Positions 398 to 40,991 of a stretch of DNA of 40,991 nt are shown here, in pieces. The notes beneath the pieces were generated by a model. It did no database searches. It had not been told where the DNA came from and saw nothing but the letters and a program-made list of their open reading frames with translations. Numbering within the stretch: the first letter of the stretch is position 1; each line of letters starts with the position of its first letter. Made by a program: the position numbers and the translations under genes. The stretch lies in assembly GCA_020852965.1 (NCBI GenBank), contig JADYZV010000042.1:1-40991 (forward strand). The letters run 5' to 3'. This stretch comes from Pirellulaceae bacterium (GTDB lineage Bacteria > Planctomycetota > Planctomycetia > Pirellulales > Pirellulaceae).

Positions 398-3300
398 TCA
401 CTCGACCACTTTCATGTCAAAATCTGCACTATTGCCGCGCAGCTCAGGTGCATACATGCCCTGGATGACACTGGGGAGTGCGGTAAATGTGCCGGGCGCC
501 TCGCTGCGGAGTTGGTAGCGAATCGAATAGCTGCCGCGTGGTAGCCAACGAATGCACAATCCGACATGCCGATCACGCAGCTCACGATAGATGCTCAACC
601 CAGAACTATAAAAATATCCGCTCTGCGTTTCTACAGACTCTAGTCCCGCCGCCTTGGGATCTTCGATCAATAGGTACTCGTAGTCGTTCTTGCTCTCCAC
701 CAGCAATTCAACTTCGACCAATTCACCTGACGGAACGGCTTGCAAGTCCTCCAGCAGTGTACGAGTAAAGCCGGCTTGTTGCGTGTCGACTACGTTGGCC
801 TGTTTGTCAGGTAGTTGCAGCGACTTCGTGCTGGGTTGCAAGTGATAGTAACGACGCTCGATCTTGACCTCCAACCCGGCCGGTGCAATCTCCTCCTCCA
901 GTGTGAAGTTGGTCGCGTAGGCATTCCAGTACAAATTGCCTTGGCCGGTTCGCCGAATCTCTAGCTGCTGCTCACCAGAGGGAACGGCAGAACCGTGAAT
1001 CTCGATGGTGTTATCGACATCGAATAGGTTAGCTGGTGTAAACTGAATAGTTCCAAGTCGCTTACCTGATAGAAACACTTCAGCCCGCATCGTCTGCTGC
1101 ATTTCTCCGCTGGCAGCGATGTAATCTGCAAAGGCCTCGACGACCAGCGCCGTATCGCGAGTGCTATTCCAATAGGTCGCATGTTTGCGATTGTTCAGCA
1201 AATACTTTACTACGCGTGGTGCGGTCTGCCCACGCGGGTCGATGGCGGCCAGCAGTTTCAAATAGATTGCATTGGCTTCGATCTCGCTACCATACCAATA
1301 CCACCACGACGCTTGGCCGCGTAGGAATGCCGTTTCGTTCTCGGCATCTTCGACCAAGAACTGTTCCATATTGCGGCGCAACATGTTGGTCTGCTCGGTG
1401 TTGCCGAGCTTGTTCGTGGCCCAAGCCAGCAAGGCCTTGCCATAGGTGCTCAAGTGCTCGCGCTGGTCGAATAGAATTTGCTGCATGGCCGGATTGGTGC
1501 GCTCAGCCAAAACCAACACGTGGAAGACCAAGGCATCGATATTATCGGGATGCTCTTTGTAGGGTTTGACTTTACCATCGGCGTTTTGCAGCTTAAGCAG
1601 TTCCTGCTGTTGATGCTGCTCGAGCCAGGCTAGACCGCGTTGCAACACGTCGGGGACAATGGGTACATCGTTCTGCTGTGCGATCAATAGGCCGCGCACT
1701 ACGGTCGCCGTCGTATGGGCACCGCTCTGATCGTGGATTCCGCTGAACCAGCCCCAGCCACCATCGCCATGTTGCATATCGCTTAGTCGAGTCACACCCG
1801 CTTGGACCATGTCTGCGACCAATTGATCGTCGAAGACCGCCGTGCGATCGAATCGCTTCCAACGCTCACGTCGCACTGCTGCGTCACCCAACTCTTGGGC
1901 ATTGAGGTTATTCCGTTTCTCTTTGAGATTAGCCAAATCGACGTTCATGCGTTGCAGTACGCGCTGTGTAATCACGGTCGGCAAAAAGCGGTTGAGCGTT
2001 TGCTCGGTGCAGCCGTACGGATACTCAGCCAGGTAGGGGAGCGCATCGATCATTGCGGCCGCCAGCGAAGGGCTCAGCCGCACCACCAAACGAGACTGTT
2101 CTATGCGCCGAGCGTCTGGAATAGTTAGCGTGGCGATCGAACTGGCTTGGCCACTGCGCACGGTCCCAGCCAACGATTCCATCTTGAGAATGCCATTGAC
2201 CACTATCGGCATTTCGAGCTGCATTGCATCGGAGGCATCATCGGTGACTGCGATAGCGCGCACGGTGACTGTCCCTTCGGCGGTGGCTCGGCAGCGCCAG
2301 TCGACGCGCGCCTGCTGGTGCGAGTCGATGTCGACGGACTGCTCGCGGTCGGCGGGGTCGAGCAATTCGAGCTGCGTTTCGCCGTCGATCTCCAGAGCTA
2401 CTTTCACACGCCGCTTGCCTGGCAGATCGTTGTGAACATTGGCTGATAGGACCACTTCGTCCCGCTCGACCAAGAAGCGTGGTGTTTGCAGTCGTATCAG
2501 TAGCGGCTTGCGCGTCACGGCACTGGTCGCGTCGCTGCCAACGCGAGTTTGCGAGGCGACAGTCCACGTGCGCAATTGCCAACTGGTAAGGTTCTCCGGC
2601 ATTTTGAAAGTGGTCTTGGCTCGCCCACTCGCATCCGTATCTAGCTTTGCAAGCCACAAAGCCGAGTCGGCAAAATCCTTACGCACGGAAACCTCGTTAG
2701 CCGCATTGGCTCCGCCCCCCGCCTCTGCACCAGCCGGCGCAGCCACCGCCGATTTTTCCATCATGGCTCCCGATGCAAAGCTATCGGACATTGCATGCAT
2801 CTCGCCCCGCGCCATACTCATCGGCGCAGCCCCTCCCATCATTCCTCCCATACCTCCTCCCATCATTCCGCCCATCATTCCACTTGCGCCAAGTTCTGCG
2901 TCGTTCCAATGGGTGGCGGCAGCATAGTCGTCGTTTCCCTCGATGGCATCGAGGTCGTCTGCCAGGGTGCTACCGAATATCCCCAGCGGCTGTAGTTGTG
3001 GCTGGTCGGCGACTTGTATCGGCTGGTGCCGCGAGTCGAGATTGGTTGAGCGTTGCGGCTGGTGATGGCGTTGCCACTTCCAAAAGAACTCGCGGATATC
3101 CGGCGGTAGCACATCGCCAGCCAGCGCTTCCAACGAGCGATCGTAGGCGGCGATGACACAGGAACCCGCGACAGGCTTTCCTGCGGGATCGGTCACCTTG
3201 ACATCGACCACGCACTCTTCACCCGGAAGATACTCCTCCTTGTCCATGGCAACCTCGACATTCAGCACACGCTCGGCCGGTGGAACGACGATCTGGCGAA

Positions 3301-6300
3301 CTTGTTGGTGATACTTGCCGCCATAGACGGTAGCCGCTTCGACAAAGAAGTTCGGCTGGTCCGCTTCCGTGACAGGAATCTCGATCACGGACGATTTGCC
3401 ATCGAGCGTAATCCATCGCGGCAGTTCATAGCCATCTTCTGCTGGACGCACGAACACGGCAACGCGCGCACCAGGATAATCGGCGGCGATCTGCAATTTG
3501 ACTGTCTCGCCAGGGGTGTAATGTTGCTTATCGGGAGTCAACTCGAGCGCGTTGTAGCGATAATCGTTGTTGTTGCCGCTATCATTGCCGCGTACCGTAA
3601 AGATGTATCCACCTTCGATCTCGTGCCCGATGGCGTCCTTGAGTCGCATGCGCACGCGATACTGGCCCGCCTGATCGGCTTGCATCGTTTGTGTACACTC
3701 CCCTTTGGCATCGGTCTGCGCATCGAAGCGAGCGACAACTTGCTCCTCAGGGCGCTGCTTATCATCGTACTTAATCTTGAGTAGTTCGACCGTGCCGCCG
3801 CCGCCGACGGGAGTGCCATCGAGCTGCTGAGCTTGGAAGTGCGCATCGATGCGCTGTCCGATCGTATAGAATCCACGATCGACCCAAGCGTAGACTTTAA
3901 ATGGCTCCTGTGCGGCGATGACCGAGCCCGAGGCAGTGATCGTACGGCGTGAGGCATCGCGAACTTCGACCGAAATCGAGTACTTGTGATCCGAGTCTCC
4001 GTAGATGGCTTTGGCCAGCGCAGTATCGATCTTGAGCTTGGCAATCCCAGTTGAATCGAGCTCCAACTGCTGTTCGAGCACGAGTTCCGGTGGCTCGTTT
4101 CCCCAAAACGGTCTCCAGCTCGGCAGCGGAGCGATGCAGCCACCCCAGCCGCGCCAGTTGGGATACCAAGTGTAGTCCTCAGCAAACCACCAATAGCCTG
4201 GACCGTAGCACCAATCGTAGGGTGCCCAAGGATAAAAGTCTTCGCGGTAGGTGCTGCGCTCGACTTTCACAGAAACCTCAGCTTCGGTTACGGGGGCACC
4301 AAAGTAGTATTTGGCTTCGATGCGAGCCTCGAACGTTTCGCCCAGAGCGACTGGTTTTTCTGGCGCAAGAATGTTGACTTCAAATTCCGGTTTGCGATAC
4401 TCTTCGACGCGAATCGCCAGCGAGGTCGTGGCGAAAGTGTTGGGAGCATCAGCTAATCGCAATTGAAAGCTATAGTGTCCCAGCGCAGCCGCGTCGGACA
4501 GCGGAACGTCGAGTTCGCAACCGCCATAGTCGTCAGTGGTAAGCTGCCGCTCGGCAACTTGTAGCCCTTGCGGATCGAGCATGTTGACCGTTACCTTACG
4601 GTTCGCAACACGCTGGCCGGGCTCGTCGCCGTACGTTGCGAAGCCGAGCCAAAACTTAGCTTGGATGGCTTCGCCGGGGCGGTACATGGGTCGATCGCTG
4701 ACGCCATAAGCCTTCAGCTCCGCATAGCTGAGAGAATTTGGGCCGCGACTCCAAAACTGTTGGAAGCCGAGCAGCGCGAAGCGTCCTTGTTGGGTACGCA
4801 CCACGCTGAACCATTGCAATTCTTGCTTGGCGGCCACTTTAGCCATTCCGTCTTTATCCGTGCGGGCAGCAAAGTTCTCGGTGATCATCTTCGGCCGACC
4901 GCCGTTGTTATTTTGCGAGCGGTCCCAACCGAAGCCAAACATTTCGATATTGGCACCGGCGACGGGCTGACCACTGTCGGCGTCCGATGCACACAGCAGC
5001 CATTGACCATCCCCCATCGCCTTTTGCACCAAGGCGGTGTCTTCGATCGATACCAAAATGCGAACTATTTGTGCGTTGGGCTGTGCTTCACTGCCAACGC
5101 TACCTTCGATCAGATAGAGGCCCGCTTTGCTCAGCGGTGTATCGATTTGTATACGCCGGTCCCAGTGATTGGGGCGCGGATCGAGCGGCTGATCCCACTC
5201 GGCTACTTGTTCTAACAGATACTGATCGATGCTATCTGCATCGAACAGCGAACCAGGTGAAGTGAGGTCAGGGACTTGCTCATTGGCTATCTTCCCAAAG
5301 CGATCGTTGGCTTCACCTGACCTGAATTTTCGATAATAGGTCTTCGTATCTAGTAGAATCTTCTCGATGTCCACGCGCCGCGCCGTAAAATTGACCTGGG
5401 TGGCATTGCGAAACAGTAGACTCAGCTTGGCCGGTTGGCCGGCTAGTTGGCTGGGGACCGAATCGAAGGTGAGTCTAGGCCGAAGAATGCTATCCAGCAA
5501 TTTCTGTTTCCAGTTCCCCGAATCGTCAAAACGAGCCAGGTAGCTTTGCAGTTGCTCGGCGGCTTGCGGATACTGGCGACGATTGAGCGAAATTTGAATG
5601 AGCTGCCAGGCCGCCGCTTCGGCATATTGTCCTTTGCCCTTGGCCACGTCTTGGAAGATACGAATGGGATTGAACTCATCGGGCAGGCTGAAGCGTTTGA
5701 TACCGTTGGCCAACTTGGCAATGGTTTCTGTTTCCGCAAGCGTGTGAATGGCCGACACTCCCTGTTCAGGTAGCTTACCGGTATCTGAGCGCTGGCGGAA
5801 AAGCCAGGCGTCTTGTTGCAGCGTGTCGACGGAGAACTGCTGATTGAGAAATGCGCCCCAACGGAATTTAGCTTCCTCACGCTTGTTCTCCGACAACTCG
5901 GCTTGAGCCAATGACCAACGCAGTCGCTGTCCATCGCTATTGGCCGTCTGCCATGAGCTGGGTAGGTCATACAGCACTGGATCGCCCGCAGCGGTAACCG
6001 GTGCAGGCCGATTCGGTAATCCTTGCTGGCCGTCTAAATCCAAGTAGTCAGGGGCTTGCTGTAAATCGGTGACCGATTGCAAACGCCATTCGAACATTCG
6101 ATCGCGACCGATTTGTAGGGCGGTGGCTTGGTCCAAATGCAATTGGGCCAGTTCATCTACCTTGGCCGCTGCGTCCGTATTGTTTGCCAGTTCAATGGCG
6201 CGCGTGCGCCATTTCAACGCCTGCAATCGATCCTGTTCAACAACATAGACCTGCTGTCCATTTTGCTGTCCGCGCGCATAGCCTCGGACGAACTGTTGAT

Positions 6301-6697
6301 CGGCTACGACGCCGTAGTGCTGAGCGTTCTGTATCTGATTGGCCGCCTGAGCCAGCACACGGAACGAATTGGGGTGTGCTGTCAGCGCGGAGGCAAGGTC
6401 ATTGTCCAACGAACTGAACAGACCGAGTTGCTGTTGGCATTGCAAAAGGGCTTCGAGCGACTCGACCACTTGCTTGTCTGCGGCATCGGGATTTTTGATG
6501 ACCGCGCGAAACAGCACTGAGGCCTCAGCATAATTGCCATCCTGCATCAATCTCTTGGCTTGGGGCAATGCGCTGGTGGGATCGGATTCTTCGATTGCTC
6601 GACTAACCGAGACTACCCAAACGACCAGCAACAACGACAAAAGGCTCATGGCAGCCCAGGCCGATCTGGATCTCAACGATGGAACTAGCTTGCGCAT
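398..6697 (-). CDS. Secreted alpha-2-macroglobulin family protein with CTEQ thioester
   Basis: A giant bacterial alpha-2-macroglobulin (2099 residues; enterobacterial YfhM is about 1650), expected to trap proteases in the periplasm or at the cell surface. Residues 1-35 are a signal peptide or signal anchor. About 40-200 is a helical, TPR-like region. MG-type beta domains follow, with an MG2-like block (RPMYRPGEAIQAKFW) near 670. A bait-region-like domain precedes a Met/Gly-rich stretch at about 1270-1314. The A2M domain follows (PENLTSWQLRTWTV), then the thioester motif PYGCTEQ with Cys1563 and an alpha-alpha toroid-like helical region. Residues 819-868 form a Trp/Tyr/Pro-rich insert. The family consensus thioester is CGEQ or CLEQ; CTEQ keeps the Cys and Gln that form the bond. 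The start is supported by GGGAG 8 nt upstream. The penicillin-binding protein gene that often accompanies this family is absent here. The protease-trap role is family knowledge, not shown here. Confidence 0.93.
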   Translation of the reverse strand: MRKLVPSLRSRSAWAAMSLLSLLLVVWVVSVSRAIEESDPTSALPQAKRLMQDGNYAEASVLFRAVIKNPDAADKQVVESLEALLQCQQQLGLFSSLDNDLASALTAHPNSFRVLAQAANQIQNAQHYGVVADQQFVRGYARGQQNGQQVYVVEQDRLQALKWRTRAIELANNTDAAAKVDELAQLHLDQATALQIGRDRMFEWRLQSVTDLQQAPDYLDLDGQQGLPNRPAPVTAAGDPVLYDLPSSWQTANSDGQRLRWSLAQAELSENKREEAKFRWGAFLNQQFSVDTLQQDAWLFRQRSDTGKLPEQGVSAIHTLAETETIAKLANGIKRFSLPDEFNPIRIFQDVAKGKGQYAEAAAWQLIQISLNRRQYPQAAEQLQSYLARFDDSGNWKQKLLDSILRPRLTFDSVPSQLAGQPAKLSLLFRNATQVNFTARRVDIEKILLDTKTYYRKFRSGEANDRFGKIANEQVPDLTSPGSLFDADSIDQYLLEQVAEWDQPLDPRPNHWDRRIQIDTPLSKAGLYLIEGSVGSEAQPNAQIVRILVSIEDTALVQKAMGDGQWLLCASDADSGQPVAGANIEMFGFGWDRSQNNNGGRPKMITENFAARTDKDGMAKVAAKQELQWFSVVRTQQGRFALLGFQQFWSRGPNSLSYAELKAYGVSDRPMYRPGEAIQAKFWLGFATYGDEPGQRVANRKVTVNMLDPQGLQVAERQLTTDDYGGCELDVPLSDAAALGHYSFQLRLADAPNTFATTSLAIRVEEYRKPEFEVNILAPEKPVALGETFEARIEAKYYFGAPVTEAEVSVKVERSTYREDFYPWAPYDWCYGPGYWWFAEDYTWYPNWRGWGGCIAPLPSWRPFWGNEPPELVLEQQLELDSTGIAKLKIDTALAKAIYGDSDHKYSISVEVRDASRRTITASGSVIAAQEPFKVYAWVDRGFYTIGQRIDAHFQAQQLDGTPVGGGGTVELLKIKYDDKQRPEEQVVARFDAQTDAKGECTQTMQADQAGQYRVRMRLKDAIGHEIEGGYIFTVRGNDSGNNNDYRYNALELTPDKQHYTPGETVKLQIAADYPGARVAVFVRPAEDGYELPRWITLDGKSSVIEIPVTEADQPNFFVEAATVYGGKYHQQVRQIVVPPAERVLNVEVAMDKEEYLPGEECVVDVKVTDPAGKPVAGSCVIAAYDRSLEALAGDVLPPDIREFFWKWQRHHQPQRSTNLDSRHQPIQVADQPQLQPLGIFGSTLADDLDAIEGNDDYAAATHWNDAELGASGMMGGMMGGGMGGMMGGAAPMSMARGEMHAMSDSFASGAMMEKSAVAAPAGAEAGGGANAANEVSVRKDFADSALWLAKLDTDASGRAKTTFKMPENLTSWQLRTWTVASQTRVGSDATSAVTRKPLLIRLQTPRFLVERDEVVLSANVHNDLPGKRRVKVALEIDGETQLELLDPADREQSVDIDSHQQARVDWRCRATAEGTVTVRAIAVTDDASDAMQLEMPIVVNGILKMESLAGTVRSGQASSIATLTIPDARRIEQSRLVVRLSPSLAAAMIDALPYLAEYPYGCTEQTLNRFLPTVITQRVLQRMNVDLANLKEKRNNLNAQELGDAAVRRERWKRFDRTAVFDDQLVADMVQAGVTRLSDMQHGDGGWGWFSGIHDQSGAHTTATVVRGLLIAQQNDVPIVPDVLQRGLAWLEQHQQQELLKLQNADGKVKPYKEHPDNIDALVFHVLVLAERTNPAMQQILFDQREHLSTYGKALLAWATNKLGNTEQTNMLRRNMEQFLVEDAENETAFLRGQASWWYWYGSEIEANAIYLKLLAAIDPRGQTAPRVVKYLLNNRKHATYWNSTRDTALVVEAFADYIAASGEMQQTMRAEVFLSGKRLGTIQFTPANLFDVDNTIEIHGSAVPSGEQQLEIRRTGQGNLYWNAYATNFTLEEEIAPAGLEVKIERRYYHLQPSTKSLQLPDKQANVVDTQQAGFTRTLLEDLQAVPSGELVEVELLVESKNDYEYLLIEDPKAAGLESVETQSGYFYSSGLSIYRELRDRHVGLCIRWLPRGSYSIRYQLRSEAPGTFTALPSVIQGMYAPELRGNSADFDMKVVE

Positions 6698-6747
6698 GAT
6701 TGTTACTCCCAGACTGCGTAGACGAGCATTGATTTGACGATTATGCG

Positions 6748-6842
6748 CTGTAGTGGACGAGGTTACGAGTCCCTGCGCGCAAGGCTGTAGTGGACGAGGT
6801 TACGAGTCCCTGCGCGCAAGGACTCGTAACCTCGTCCACTAC
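6748..6842. repeat. Palindromic dispersed repeat, locus 1 (tandem unit plus hairpin)
   Basis: Two identical 37-bp direct units lie at 6748-6784 and 6785-6821. The second unit forms a perfect 23-bp stem (6787-6809 with 6820-6842) around a 10-nt loop. The same stem sequence recurs as a perfect 24-bp inverted repeat at 15483-15567. It sits 50 bp upstream of the alpha-2-macroglobulin start, outside any gene. There is no U-run, so a repeat of the REP/MITE kind is more likely than a terminator. Confidence 0.9.
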
Positions 6843-26425: not shown

Positions 26426-27817
26426 TTAGCCCAGCCCTTCTATTTGCCAGCCGTCGCGGTACTCGCGGCGAACCAAAGCGCTGGCCGATTCGTTGTCGGT
26501 GAAAGTTTGGCTTTCGCGATTCCAATGCAGCCAATCGCCGGCCGCTCGATCGGCCATCGCTCCCACCAACACCGCTTCGGTCAGCGGACCGCCATGGCTG
26601 AAATCGTCGCAGGCCTTGCGCCCAGCGAGAATCGCGTCGACCCAGTCGTGATAGTGATTTTGCGGAGCCAAGTCGGTAGGGTACTTCTCAGCAGGGAAGT
26701 CGGTTTCCGGCAGTACAACCGGATTCCCGCCGCGATAGTTCTTGAAAATGGAGCCCCTCTCGCCAATCCAAAAGGTGCCCGATTCGGGCAGTTGATCGAC
26801 CCCCTGCGGCAGGCTGATGCGGCTGGCGTCCGGGCGATTCTCGCCATCGTGCCAAGTCAGCTTCACCGTATCGTCCGCGGTGATTTCGCTGCCTGGGAAG
26901 ACGAGCTCTACCATGCGCTGCGTGCCCCACAAAGGTCCGCTACTGCCAGGGGTAAGTTGTCGAACTCGCAGCGGCGCGGTCAACTGCAAAGCATCAAAAC
27001 TGATGTCGAAATGGTGACAGCCCATATCGCCCATTTCACCGACACCAAAACCGTACCACGCCCGCCAAGTCTTCGGATGGTAGGTGTCCTTGAAATAGGG
27101 GCGCGATTCTTGCACACCCAGCCAAAGATCCCAGTCCAAACTGGCGGGCACCGCATCGCCGCGACCGCTGATGTCCGTGTTTTTGGGCCACCAACTGAGC
27201 GCTTTGTTTTCCCATAGAATCACCTCCTTAATGTTCCCAATAGCCCCGCTGCGGAGCAGCTCAACCGTCATGCGGCTTTCGATGCTGGAACGCCCCTGAT
27301 TGCCCAATTGCGTAATGACACCCGCCTTGGCCGCTTCTTGCGTAATGACGCGGCATTCATGCAGCGTGGAGGCCATGGGTTTTTGCAAGTAGACATGTTT
27401 CTTGGCGCGAATCGCGGAAACGGTTGGGGCCGCGTGCATGTGGTCGGGAGTGCCGATCGTGACCGCATCAAACTTCTCGGCATGGTCGGCCATCAATTCG
27501 CGCCAGTCCCTATGCTGCGTGGCGTGGGGATGTTTTTCGCCGGCACGCTTGAGAAACCCGGAGTCGACGTCGCACAACGCGGTGATCTTTACTTTGCTAT
27601 GCGCGGCGACTTGGTCCATCGTGTGTCCCCCCATACCGCCCACGCCGATACAACCAACCTGCAGCATCGAATTTGGTGAAGCGCTACGCAGGATCGCCGG
27701 ACAGCCGACGGCTCCAGCCGACGCGGTCGCCAAGGATGCCGTGGCTTGCTTCAAGAACTGGCGGCGCACCAACGACTTGCGCTGTACGTTGAGCGACTTG
27801 GGGGAAGGGGCAGGCAT
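26426..27817 (-). CDS. Gfo/Idh/MocA family oxidoreductase, Tat-exported
   Basis: A 463-residue NAD(P)-dependent dehydrogenase of the glucose-fructose oxidoreductase family. A Tat signal (VRRQFLKQATASLA) occupies about residues 15-35. The Rossmann loop follows as GCIGVGGMGG, then 'ITALCDVD', 'VTIGTPDHMHA' and 'YLQKPM'. The usual EKP is QKP here; the Lys is kept. The C-terminal half holds 'MGDMGCHHFD' with the pair of His expected near the active site. The start is set at 27817, where GGAG lies 6 nt upstream. The frame is open to 28033, but those 72 codons precede the Tat signal and look non-coding. Exported Gfo/Idh proteins usually keep their cofactor tightly bound. Located 138 bp upstream of the PSD1 gene, it may share its regulation. 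Confidence 0.9.
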   Translation of the reverse strand: MPAPSPKSLNVQRKSLVRRQFLKQATASLATASAGAVGCPAILRSASPNSMLQVGCIGVGGMGGHTMDQVAAHSKVKITALCDVDSGFLKRAGEKHPHATQHRDWRELMADHAEKFDAVTIGTPDHMHAAPTVSAIRAKKHVYLQKPMASTLHECRVITQEAAKAGVITQLGNQGRSSIESRMTVELLRSGAIGNIKEVILWENKALSWWPKNTDISGRGDAVPASLDWDLWLGVQESRPYFKDTYHPKTWRAWYGFGVGEMGDMGCHHFDISFDALQLTAPLRVRQLTPGSSGPLWGTQRMVELVFPGSEITADDTVKLTWHDGENRPDASRISLPQGVDQLPESGTFWIGERGSIFKNYRGGNPVVLPETDFPAEKYPTDLAPQNHYHDWVDAILAGRKACDDFSHGGPLTEAVLVGAMADRAAGDWLHWNRESQTFTDNESASALVRREYRDGWQIEGLG

Positions 27818-34295: not shown

Positions 34296-34758
34296 GTTAA
34301 GAAAAACATCGTTTTTGTGACGTCTGACTGCGCTTAGCCGTGCGGTGGATATGGTTAAAGAAAGTCGATGGTGTAGCGTCGGGCCAGATTCGCTTAGCAA
34401 CAGGTGTAAAAGAACTACAGCAGTTCAACAGCGAATGAGAGTATGGACATGGCGACAACCACCATCGCTCACTTGCCGGGCGTGGAGCAACCAGTGGAGT
34501 ATCCAAATGTAGCTGGCAAGCCGCTCGCTTCGATGCTGCAATAACTAATAACTATCGTCGCGCACCCTGTCCTAATATCGGCACGCGGTTTGCTGACATG
34601 AGTCGCAGCATCGCGAACATCCAGTAGCATCGCTAACTTCGAAGCCACTTGTATTTGCTCGCCTGACAATTGGCCGTTTTGACGTTATCCAAGGCTGCCA
34701 GAAATGTCGAATAGCGTTGGACTGGGTGATTATCAAACACTCTGACGGATTTTACGAC
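34296..34758. other. Intergenic between ric promoter and extended SDR gene
   Basis: No protein-like frame, RNA gene or strong hairpin is seen. Short open frames on the minus strand lack ribosome sites and conserved features. It presumably contains the plus-strand promoter of the SDR gene, which I could not place. Confidence 0.4.
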
Positions 34759-37632: not shown

Positions 37633-38847
37633 CTAAGAACTCAAATGCGCTTCGAGCAGGCAAGCCACCGCTACGGCCGGTGCGCAGCGTGCAGCACCGG
37701 ACGAAATACGCTCGGAGAGATTCAGGCAATCAACGGCGTGTGGCAGTTGTGCAACGGCGGCTCGAGCCAGCGGAAGACCGTGACCGCTAATCATGATCAA
37801 TGGGCGCTCATCGGGTAAGGACAAGGCGGGAAGATTCTCGGTGATCGCTTGGGCAACTTGGCGTGCTTGACGTTCGACGACCGCTCGAGCTAGCGAATCT
37901 ATTTCGCCATGCTGGAGCCGCTCGCAATCCTCGCCCAACATTCTTGCGAGGCGCGCGCGCGACGCGCTGACAGTGCGCGGACGACCGTCGGCGGTATCGG
38001 TATCCGAGCCATAGCGGCCAAGCTGCTGAGGTAAATAATCCGACGGCGGAGCGTCGGGCCACATTAAATCCGACGGCGGAGCGTCGGGCCAAATTAAATC
38101 CGACGGCGGAGCGTCGGGCCACATTAGATCCGAGGGCGGAGCGTCGGGGCGTATTGAGTCGGCGGCGGGAATAAAGCCTAGGGCCATGTATGCGTCATCG
38201 CTGGTGGCAAAACGTTCAGCCACCAATGGCCAATGGACTCCATTGAGCGTTGCCGAAGAGAGGATCGCTGCGATCGGAGTGCGTCCCACTCCCGTGTAGA
38301 CCAACTGTCGCATGCGAAGACGTTCACTATCGCAGCGTGCGGTCGTAGCAACGCGGCGGTCCATGATGGGGATCACATCGACCGTCGTGGAGCCGATATC
38401 GAGTACGATCCGCAAGTTATCGCTTTCGGTAACTACATGCCTCGCGATCCACTGCGCCAATGCGTGCCAATTGCTGGCAGCCACGTCCCAAGGATGCTGG
38501 CATGCCGAATGTGGTGTCAACCAATTTCCATCGACACTATAGACATGCAATTCGCCCGTTGTGATCGCGCTGGCCAGTTGCTGCAAGATGAACTCGACTC
38601 CCGCAGCGCGAGTAGCAAAGCAATCGGCCATTTCGCCCGTCATGGTGACCGCAATATGCGAGTAAGTGCTGCGTGTATCTCTACAGAAACAGTCAATTCC
38701 CTTGCGTAAGGAGTTGGCAAGTTCGTCGGCTGCGCTCCACATCGGAAAGTACCAGGCAGCGCTTTCACCCGCCGAATTGGCCAGTTTGATATGCGCTCCA
38801 CCAATATCAATGCCCAGCATTCGACAGGGGCTCGCAGGTCGGACCAT
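37633..38847 (-). CDS. ASKHA-fold kinase-like protein of the H4MPT/methanofuran C1 pathway (TIGR03123, MfnF-like)
   Basis: A 404-residue protein of the hydantoinase/oxoprolinase-like branch of the actin/Hsp70 ATPase fold. The two phosphate loops are MLGIDIGGAHIKLAN (about 10-24) and VLDIGSTTVDVIPI. The segments TMTGEMADCF and 'YSVDGNWL' are typical of TIGR03123, which accompanies tetrahydromethanopterin-linked C1 transfer genes. Archaeal members include MfnF, which joins the furan and tyramine parts of methanofuran. Residues about 230-270 are a non-family insert: four near-identical 10-residue units (WPDAPPSDLM type) encoded by 30-bp repeats at 38041-38160. The frame stays open, so the protein may be functional with an added loop. 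The start could also be the Met at residue 10 (38820); no ribosome site decides. Confidence 0.8.
   Translation of the reverse strand: MVRPASPCRMLGIDIGGAHIKLANSAGESAAWYFPMWSAADELANSLRKGIDCFCRDTRSTYSHIAVTMTGEMADCFATRAAGVEFILQQLASAITTGELHVYSVDGNWLTPHSACQHPWDVAASNWHALAQWIARHVVTESDNLRIVLDIGSTTVDVIPIMDRRVATTARCDSERLRMRQLVYTGVGRTPIAAILSSATLNGVHWPLVAERFATSDDAYMALGFIPAADSIRPDAPPSDLMWPDAPPSDLIWPDAPPSDLMWPDAPPSDYLPQQLGRYGSDTDTADGRPRTVSASRARLARMLGEDCERLQHGEIDSLARAVVERQARQVAQAITENLPALSLPDERPLIMISGHGLPLARAAVAQLPHAVDCLNLSERISSGAARCAPAVAVACLLEAHLSS
38041..38160. repeat. In-frame 30-bp tandem repeat derived from a dispersed palindrome
   Basis: Four units at 38041-38070, 38071-38100, 38101-38130 and 38131-38160. 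Units 1-3 differ by one or two bases; unit 4 is decayed. Each holds CCGACG and CGTCGG halves that can pair. An almost identical unit lies outside genes at 40955-40991. Spacers are absent, so this is not a CRISPR array. Confidence 0.95.
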
Positions 38848-38962: not shown

Positions 38963-40924
38963 TCATCCACGTGTATTGGTCAGCTCACTGCTTGCGGAGG
39001 CATCGAAGTGAATCGGCAATACGACTTGGAAGGTACTGCCAGTTCCCAACTGGCTCGACAGACGCACTTCACCTCCAAGCAATTTGCATAGCTCCTTGAC
39101 GATCGACAGTCCTAAACCGGTTCCTGAGTGCTGACGCGTGAGGCCATCGTTTTGCAAGACCGCATTGCTCTGACGAAACTTCTCGAAAATGATCTCGAAG
39201 TCGCTCTCTGGAATTCCCACACCAGTGTCTTTCACCGTAATATAAAAATAGGACTCCGAAACTCGTCCCAGCGAGACGGTAACCAAGCCACCATCGGGTG
39301 TAAACTTAATCGCGTTGGAGAGTAGATTGGTTAGGATTTGTTGCATCTTGGGTTGATCTTGAAAGACCTCTTGTAGATCGTCGTCCGCTTCGACTTGTAG
39401 CTCCATATTCTTTTCGTCGACCAGGCTTCGGAGCATATCGCATTGGGCACTGACCAGATCCGCCAAGTGAAATGAGGTCGGGGTAACGCGCATTTTGCCG
39501 GCCTCGATCTTGGCCAAATCTAGAATATCATTGATCATAAGCAACAGTAGTTTGCCGCTCTTCTGAATGTTAGCCGCATAGCGTCGCTGTTTGTCGGTCA
39601 GTGACGAAATATCATGCAGCACGTCGCTAAAACCAATGATACTGTTCAATGGTGTGCGCAGCTCATGACTCATGTTCGCCAGAAAGTCGCTCTTGAGGCG
39701 ATTGGCCTCGAATAGATGCAAGTTGGCTTGGGCCAGTTGGTCGACTCGCACATCAAGCTCTGAGTTCAACTTCTGTAGCTTTTCCTGACCATCGGTCATG
39801 TGCCGCAGCATGCGGTTGAATGCGTCGGCGAGTTCATTGAATTCATCCCCCGTATCGAGGTTGACGCTCAAGTCGGTCCCTCCTCGGCTAATTTCATCAC
39901 TGACCGTTTTTAAATGTTGTAGTGGGTTGAGCACCAGACGACGCAGCACCCAGTGTACAACCAACAAGGTGGCGGCCACCGTCAACATGGCGACGGTAAT
40001 CATCCAAGCTAAGGTGGCCGGCGTAGCGACTTGTGTCAATCGAAACGGCAGCATGACCTTTACAACCCAAAACGGAACTTTCTTCTCGCCAAAGCGGGGG
40101 AAACGGTCATGGCAGGATAAACAACGATCGGAAAAATTGACCACGTGATAGTAGACGTACCAACCCTCCGGCGGCGTCTCGGCAGCGAAGCGCATCTGGC
40201 TATCCTCGGACGGAATAACCGGACCTTCCTCGCGAAATAACCGTTCCATTTCCAATAGCTTTTCGTCCAATAATTGACGAGTGGCCAAGCTATTGTCGAG
40301 AGGCGGCCGCGATGGAGGTGTGGCACTAGCATCCTTGCCATCGCTCGCGCCCACAGTTGGAGAAACTGTCGATGGGCCGCTAGCAGCGGAGGTTGGGTCC
40401 GTCGTGGTATCCGGAGCAACAAGCTGACTTCGCAGTTCGGCAATCCGGCTCAACCGCTGACGAAAACTGGACTCCAGATCTTGTAGTAACTTCGTCTCGT
40501 GCGGCGTCGAAGGAAGGTAGGCCGAGGGTAATTCGGCATACTCGAACTCTCGATCGAGCATTAGAAATTCGTAGCGGTAATCGGGGTTGTCAACTAGGTC
40601 ATGACGCAGAATGGCCAACTGATCAGGTAGGAAATACGAATTGCGATCGGGATACACCGGTTCGACATCGCCCGGCTTGCGTCGATCTACGTGCTGCCAG
40701 GCGATCACCGACCTAGCATAGTCACTGGCCGCCTGCCGCGTGGTCTGTTTGACCAACGGTTCGGCTACCACATGCAATACAAACCAGAATGCCAAACCAA
40801 TGGGTATTACCAGCGCAAAACCAAGAAATAGCAAACTCTTGCGTTCGAGGCTCCAACCGAGCACGAGCTTCCTCACGAGTCGCCCCAGTGAGTCAATCAG
40901 AGCCTGGTACCAACGTGGTTTCAT
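38963..40924 (-). CDS. Membrane sensor histidine kinase with periplasmic heme-c motif
   Basis: A 653-residue hybrid of a redox or ligand sensor and a kinase. A first membrane helix (about residues 28-50) and a second (about 300-328) bracket a periplasmic domain resembling DUF3365/Tll0287. This domain contains the c-type heme motif CLSCH (C268, C271, H272) after a Ser/Thr/Pro-rich linker at about 170-205. HAMP, a short coiled coil and HisKA follow (SHELRTPLNSIIGF, phospho-acceptor His420). The HATPase carries an N box (NLLSNAIKFTPDGG) and the glycine boxes DTGVGIP and GTGLGLSIVKEL. There is no receiver domain and no response regulator next to it. The start is ATG 40924; the frame also opens two codons earlier at a GTG. 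NO, oxygen or redox potential are possible signals (inference). Confidence 0.92.
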   Translation of the reverse strand: MKPRWYQALIDSLGRLVRKLVLGWSLERKSLLFLGFALVIPIGLAFWFVLHVVAEPLVKQTTRQAASDYARSVIAWQHVDRRKPGDVEPVYPDRNSYFLPDQLAILRHDLVDNPDYRYEFLMLDREFEYAELPSAYLPSTPHETKLLQDLESSFRQRLSRIAELRSQLVAPDTTTDPTSAASGPSTVSPTVGASDGKDASATPPSRPPLDNSLATRQLLDEKLLEMERLFREEGPVIPSEDSQMRFAAETPPEGWYVYYHVVNFSDRCLSCHDRFPRFGEKKVPFWVVKVMLPFRLTQVATPATLAWMITVAMLTVAATLLVVHWVLRRLVLNPLQHLKTVSDEISRGGTDLSVNLDTGDEFNELADAFNRMLRHMTDGQEKLQKLNSELDVRVDQLAQANLHLFEANRLKSDFLANMSHELRTPLNSIIGFSDVLHDISSLTDKQRRYAANIQKSGKLLLLMINDILDLAKIEAGKMRVTPTSFHLADLVSAQCDMLRSLVDEKNMELQVEADDDLQEVFQDQPKMQQILTNLLSNAIKFTPDGGLVTVSLGRVSESYFYITVKDTGVGIPESDFEIIFEKFRQSNAVLQNDGLTRQHSGTGLGLSIVKELCKLLGGEVRLSSQLGTGSTFQVVLPIHFDASASSELTNTRG

Positions 40925-40954
40925 ACGCACGAGCCATCAATGGACGAATGGGCG

Positions 40955-40991
40955 AATTTAATGTGGCCCGACGCTCCGTCGTCGGATTTAA
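40955..40991. repeat. Dispersed palindromic repeat, extragenic copy cut by window end
   Basis: On the minus strand it matches the 30-bp unit of 38041-38160 plus its flank, with a single difference over about 36 bases. It begins and ends with A/T-rich TTAA-type sequence around a CCGACG/CGTCGG core and lies just upstream of the histidine kinase start. Confidence 0.85.

Follow-up and report, generated by a model that had tools for sequence, protein, structure and literature searches.

Repetitive extragenic palindromic (REP) elements are defined by Nunvar et al. (2013; PMC3686654) as GT(A/G)G together with a palindrome. Di Nocera et al. (2013; PMC3733652) report GTAG and CGTC REPs, both in phyla that include the Planctomycetes, with Rhodopirellula baltica named, and class the Rickettsia palindromic elements (RPE) RPE-4 and RPE-6 as CGTC REPs; Bertels and Rainey (2011; PMC3116915) describe tandem arrays of REPs and of REPINs, which are inverted REP doublets. 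Here we describe a REP-like repeat in a stretch of 40,991 nucleotides from a Pirellulaceae bacterium (assembly GCA_020852965.1, contig JADYZV010000042.1), referred to below as the window, which is an entire contig (C42) of this source genome. Four units of the repeat stand head-to-tail and in frame within a gene for a TIGR03123-family protein. We consider it probable that they belong to a GTRG-footed REP family which was spread by a REP-associated tyrosine transposase (RAYT), now decayed, and afterwards multiplied by local duplication, and that within genes only in-frame arrays have survived.

Tandem Repeats Finder places the array at 38037-38148, with a period of 30, 3.7 copies and 95% matches. 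On the minus strand the core of the repeat was found four times (starts at 38037, 38067, 38097 and 38127), three times exactly and once with 3 mismatches, and on the plus strand one exact core lies outside the array, at 40965. A pattern for a GTRG foot followed by a hairpin has 4 matches in the window, namely three array units and the solo unit, as compared to a shuffle mean of 0.02, and the contig ends 3 bp past the solo unit. The array is in frame within a 404-residue open reading frame (ORF), where it occupies residues about 231-270 and is translated as RPDAPPSDL-MWPDAPPSDLI-WPDAPPSDLM-WPDAPPSD. An earlier reading made from the sequence alone (the sequence-only reading) had described four in-frame tandem 30-bp copies with one more elsewhere, adding some 40 residues at about 230-270; these points hold, and its start at 38041 was about 4 bp off, the units running from 38037 to 38155 (Table 1). 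A possible decayed REP copy, matching the core with 5 mismatches, was also seen at 34362-34385 on the minus strand, a level at which the backwards control gives 1 match in 980 kb.

The whole source genome (8.37 Mb in 199 contigs) contains 373 matches to the core GGCCCGACGCTCCGNCGNCGGATT at up to 3 mismatches, against 1 for the backwards control, and 212 matches at up to 2 mismatches, against 0 for the control, to a loop-shortened form GTGGCNCGACGCTCCGCGTCG that we call type B, a few places possibly being counted both as type B and as the type A core. The proposal that a dispersed palindromic element is repeated in frame inside a coding gene is therefore borne out, and so is the expected abundance of the element elsewhere in the genome. 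Among 199 genomes of the family, 33 have a core match, the source genome included; every other one has at most 5, and 13 genomes of the same genus have 0 or 1. Details of the family were taken from a 980-kb sample of nine pieces (C9, C28, C27, C3, C99, C101, C187, C46 and the window), biased in that the pieces were picked for their length or for holding REP matches; it contains 95 copies with up to 5 mismatches at 51 sites, with a backwards control of 1. The conserved unit is AATGTGGCCCGACGCTCCGCCGTCGGATT (84 copies in the sample), which consists of a GTGG or GTAG foot and the hairpin CCGACG-CTCCGC-CGTCGG, and its AAT and ATT ends are conserved. This hairpin is also the minimum-energy fold, with a predicted stem of 6 bp. 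Counted with a pattern that itself includes the GTRG foot, the foot is GTGG in 69 of 81 type A copies (at most 2 mismatches) and GTAG in 7, together 76/81, and GTGG or GTAG in 29 of 32 type B copies. The element thus has the 20-40 bp hairpin of the GTRG/GTAG REP superfamily, the 5' GTRG tetranucleotide adjoining the palindrome, a high copy number and a mainly intergenic location. By these features the unit is a GTRG-footed REP element, of a new family but of a known kind.

Neighbouring copies in the sample that lie up to 200 bp apart form 56 pairs, of which 50 are head-to-tail and 6 inverted; five of the six inverted pairs involve type B, and one adjoins the RAYT fragments described below. The arrays considered number 36, all same-strand, from the sample and from 13 extra loci taken together, the latter picked for holding arrays; ten arrays have two copies and 26 have at least three. 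Periods vary from array to array. Spacers are 0.87 identical within an array as compared to 0.32 against the flanks of other arrays, and units are 0.94 identical within arrays and 0.90 between them, a pattern which suggests in-place duplication of the unit together with some adjoining DNA. CRISPR was dropped as an explanation because the spacers within one array are alike, no cas search having been made. With ORFs from a home-made hexamer gene caller (coding fraction 0.84), 20 of the 51 sites touch a called ORF and 31 lie outside, a depletion with P = 4.5e-13 if the sites are taken as independent. The 31 non-ORF sites comprise 11 in convergent, 15 in unidirectional and 4 in divergent gaps and 1 at a contig end. 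Gap length predicts about 19%, 54% and 27% for the three kinds of gap, respectively, so that convergent gaps are preferred and divergent gaps avoided; unidirectional gaps show no enrichment (15/30 sites versus 54% of gap length).

The protein that bears the array passes the NCBIfam family TIGR03123 with 254.1 bits (curated cut-off 244.1), matches Hydantoinase_A in Pfam, and has 3cet/3c0b, the archaeal Q6M145 protein, as its best Foldseek matches. It had been called MfnF-like, a name that agrees with TIGR03123 as far as the family goes; the identity as MfnF itself failed, the equivalog NF040623 scoring 159.8 bits against a cut-off of 520. All 40 genomes searched have a match for this protein, and the 29 of 39 relatives that have locus sequence were aligned. 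The region between its residues 226 and 284, 59 residues long, is 9 residues long in 28 of these 29 relatives and 7 in the other. Among the 80 best of at least 581 qualifying named homologs, a set which shares some genomes with the 29 relatives, it is 9 residues long in 79 and 7 in one (L245), and pooling of the two overlapping sets gives 109 homolog rows, 107 with 9 residues and two with 7. The sequence-only reading had set such an alignment beforehand as the comparison that could overturn it; the insert residues occur in 0 of the 29 aligned relatives and in 0 of these 80 best homologs of at least 581, an outcome that favours the reading. Judged from the alignments, the protein has gained 50 residues at a place of near-fixed length, about 40 of them REP units and the remainder other sequence. 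An AlphaFold model of the protein, built with 45 sequences, has a mean predicted local distance difference test score (pLDDT) of 87.3 and a predicted template modelling score of 0.86, with 314 of 404 residues at 90 or above.

Table 1. Features located in the window, with REP units numbered in gene order
Feature	Position	Strand	Basis
TIGR03123-family protein, 404 aa, 'probable H4MPT-linked C1 transfer pathway protein', bears the insert	37633-38847	-	NCBIfam, Foldseek, homolog alignment
REP array, four head-to-tail 29-bp units with 1-bp spacers, period 30	38037-38155	-	Tandem Repeats Finder, core search
REP unit 1, diverged copy	38127-38155	-	core search
REP unit 2, consensus	38097-38125	-	core search, GTRG-hairpin pattern
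REP unit 3, foot changed once (TTGG instead of GTGG)	38067-38095	-	GTRG-hairpin pattern
REP unit 4, consensus	38037-38065	-	core search, GTRG-hairpin pattern
Solo REP unit, loop C to T, 29 bp past the 5' end of the histidine kinase ORF	40960-40988	+	core search

Other genes of the source genome contain such arrays as well. The GluQRS gene (C20, L008:1522-2754, minus strand) has four units at a 33-bp period, and its array site measures 73 residues, where all 10 same-genus homologs that were aligned have 11-14; in an eleventh (G147) the matches are split in a way that fits a missing insert. This comparison had no clear GluQRS match in G171 and left seven other-family genomes unaligned. A gene for an MnmE-like GTPase (C99:86819-88138) holds three units at spacings of 42 and 39, as well as a type B copy at C99:87539-87559. 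Of 12 relatives, five match in separate pieces with breaks near residues 61-67 and 96-107, five match only past about residue 86-108, and two (G082 and G023) have a single match that spans the array region, so that, by these matches, the case for insertion is less clean than that of GluQRS. REPs are also found in flavoreductase-like, MFS, GNAT, cytochrome-like and ceramidase-like ORFs and in three without clear families, going by family assignment alone. Among in-ORF arrays, every spacing is divisible by three in 7 of 10 from the sample and in 3 of 5 from the extra loci, whereas for intergenic arrays the figures are 4 of 11 and 3 of 10, respectively; ORF calling itself favours periods divisible by three. 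The in-ORF arrays that break this rule (3/10 and 2/5) are five, none of them homology-verified.

These spacings raise the idea that the in-gene arrays are contingency loci, in which the gain or loss of in-frame units tunes the length or activity of an enzyme under selection. Within the window array, three units out of four hardly differ from one another, and 8 of 8 spacings are divisible by three (30/30/30 in the TIGR03123 protein, 33/33/33 in GluQRS and 42/39 in the MnmE-like ORF), both as such loci would have it. However, any gene that survives must keep its frame, no selection for switching being needed, and the multiple-of-three bias in ORFs is what frame survival gives by itself. The host genes are, moreover, unrelated, the unit is read in differing frames and on both strands, and sites are depleted in called ORFs (20/51 against the coding fraction given above), which makes this idea improbable. 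We give slightly less credence still to a version in which, once the transposase had decayed, the family spread by local head-to-tail duplication and the in-frame arrays in GluQRS, the MnmE-like GTPase and the TIGR03123 protein serve as loops of variable length, so that the properties of these enzymes differ from cell to cell.

The link to a transposase comes from relatives. A short core, GACGCTCCGNCGTC, has 352 occurrences in the source genome, 23 in G010, 19 each in G074 and G195 and 8 in G108, with 0-3 in each of the other genomes searched. In G010 and G074 most copies are GTRGCACGACGCTCCGCCGTCGT or close to it, with an identical loop and an A-T outer stem pair versus C-G in the source genome, and G108 has a further version with G-C. 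In 11 hand-chosen copies 66 of 66 stem cells are paired, with 4 double changes, and 0 of 500 shuffles were as good; such a compensated stem may be regarded as modest evidence, since only one of the six pairs varies. Between REP copies, G010 encodes a 222-residue protein that matches NF047646 (REP-associated tyrosine transposase) at 3.8e-13 and 49.6 bits, under the cut-off of 80, and Y1_Tnp at 23.8 bits (cut-off 23). The RAYT of G074 is 97% identical to it, and in both genomes the intact RAYT is flanked, with copies in inverted orientation, by REPs that have the loop of the source genome and the compensated outer pair. A dense REP cluster around the intact RAYT, with many inverted pairs about 75-110 bp apart, is kept in these two genus-g11 genomes (L102 3038-11135, on G010:C90, and L103, on G074:C269).

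When the source genome was searched with the G010 RAYT, two matches were found and no others, at C101:26376-26576 (residues 2-68) and 26748-26912 (residues 2-56), with 60% and 62% identity to the G010 protein. These 5' fragments are part of a tandem duplication of about 235 bp, 94% identical, with REPs before and between them, and the nearest upstream REP is an inverted type B copy at 34 bp, G074 having an inverted type B copy at 33 bp. As a further observation, both fragments lie in one 222-residue open frame that spans the REPs between them (L096 6241-6915, C101:26241-26915). Seven Y1_Tnp proteins (PF01797) of the source genome were considered as the cognate transposase and rejected, none having a GTRG hairpin within 700 bp and one having a REP about 1.2 kb away.

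Hairpins with a GTRG foot (at least 6 perfect pairs, a test that yields 0.09 hairpins in 800 bp of shuffled sequence) were found at the flanks of 9 of 18 RAYT loci, our own fragments counted and 18 of 25 loci covered, and of 5 of 9 loci in a further set; three more RAYT loci had none, bar one unrelated hairpin. All 14 positive loci have at least one hairpin with TCC in the loop. Three RAYT loci of the same genus, L251 (G082), L253 (G171) and L255 (G199), have flanking GTRG hairpins with other stems and a similar GCTCCG loop, which suggests that the loop is conserved while stems turn over.

These flanking copies also bear on the rival view that the element belongs to the CGTC REP and RPE group and is not a GTRG REP. 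That group is well known for in-frame insertions into coding sequence (PMC3733652), and here they are present in the TIGR03123 protein and GluQRS and, less cleanly, in the MnmE-like protein; close to the end of the reverse strand there is a CCA, which resembles the CCA tails of CGTC REPs, and with five bases bulged out, pairing of the AAT and ATT ends would be possible. However, the consensus of 84 copies ends without an unpaired CGTC tag, nor does it have TGTC or CCTC in its place or a long stem starting with AT pairs, the predicted stem being 6 bp as opposed to the 8-9 bp given for CGTC families in the same source, and related copies flank a RAYT. Membership of the CGTC group is accordingly very doubtful. 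The likeness to Rickettsia elements drawn by the sequence-only reading is apt with regard to in-frame insertion; as to kind, the element fits RAYT-linked GTRG REPs and not the CGTC REPs RPE-4 and RPE-6.

Several points weigh against a RAYT-spread, locally duplicated GTRG family. The RAYT link in relatives amounts to one locus common to G010 and G074, and the REP core is absent near 5 of 5 RAYT loci checked in G108 (L248, L256) and G195 (L250, L257, L258), despite similar REPs in both genomes. A complete RAYT could be missing from the 199-contig assembly. Folding energies are unexceptional (for the unit z is -1.6 and -1.4, for the array -0.7 and -0.9), so that the hairpin assignment rests on the compensated stem pair and the RAYT link. 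The period is strictly constant in 15 of the 26 arrays of three or more copies and no more; the right flank matches the array spacer partly (0.51) and the left flank not above control (0.29 versus 0.32), and the duplication mechanism is therefore not pinned down. The low pLDDT values of residues 231-280 in the AlphaFold model (34-59, block means), which otherwise speak for this reading, are expected anyway because no homolog aligns there. Finally, neither REP movement nor a change in copy number was seen, and a close strain in which the site is empty was not available.

That the tandem copies are an artefact of short-read collapse or expansion would suit an assembly of 199 contigs and a window that ends at a REP; it is nevertheless highly improbable, given that substitutions distinguish the copies, each site has its own period, conserved genes stay in frame, and arrays are found again at many places. 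Selection of the repeat as protein sequence, a Pro/Asp-rich linker that merely resembles a dispersed DNA element, is barely credible: PDAPPSD does recur in the TIGR03123 protein, GluQRS and the ceramidase-like ORF, but 31 of the 51 sampled sites lie outside called ORFs, the same DNA is elsewhere read in other frames or from the opposite strand, and the residues are in no aligned homolog.

Under the preferred reading, that of a GTRG REP family with a decayed transposase, a RAYT of the fragment type, or its predecessor, would have spread the family; after landing, a unit and a little adjoining DNA would have been duplicated in tandem through slippage or unequal exchange. Within genes, only frame-keeping insertions in a tolerant loop would survive, and the array in the TIGR03123 gene would consequently be a tolerated, probably non-adaptive part of the 50-residue insert. 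In-gene REPs as such are already described. The unusual features here are the predominance of head-to-tail copies, the remnant of a RAYT, and how large the in-frame inserts are and where they sit. The sequence-only reading had held that such elements are not widely described in Planctomycetota; REPs have in fact been reported there, R. baltica being named (PMC3733652), and what stands is the narrower point that a literature search of limited depth found no in-frame REP array in a planctomycete. The analysis documents a planctomycete REP family, what is left of a related transposase gene, and REP DNA within conserved enzymes. At these loci one can readily test how much extra sequence an enzyme will accept from a mobile hairpin before it breaks, and whether arrays go on growing after loss of the transposase. 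Such loci may also mislead gene callers and short-read assemblers.

Elsewhere in the window, a 37-bp unit is duplicated exactly in tandem at 6747-6821, just past the 5' end of a called gene (398-6697, minus strand), and a 12-bp tandem repeat of 4.2 copies, its unit length divisible by three, lies at 2832-2881 in a 2099-residue ORF. The histidine kinase next to the solo unit (38963-40930, minus strand) has HAMP, HisKA and HATPase_c domains and, in its sensor part, a CLSCH motif, which we take to resemble a c-type haem site.

Compared with described systems, the element shares with Rickettsia RPE the occurrence of a palindromic repeat in frame inside conserved protein genes, acting in this respect as an RPE does, and differs in having no CGTC tag and in that related copies flank a RAYT. 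As with REPINs, inverted pairs occur, although they are a small minority here, whereas Pseudomonas REPINs are held to be the replicative unit (PMC3116915). The REPs of Rhodopirellula baltica come from the same phylum and from a genome with several REP families and many tyrosine transposase genes (PMC3733652), the likeness being one of description. GTAG/GTRG REPs and REPtrons, as described in PMC3733652, PMC3686654 and PMC3116915, differ from the present family in that the RAYT trace in the source genome consists of two 5' fragments only and unidirectional gaps are not enriched. They are alike in the GTRG foot, the 6-bp hairpin, the hundreds of copies mostly outside ORFs, the avoidance of divergent gaps, the tandem clusters that include flanking DNA and the occasional in-gene copies, and also in a RAYT with inverted flanking copies, found here in two relatives.
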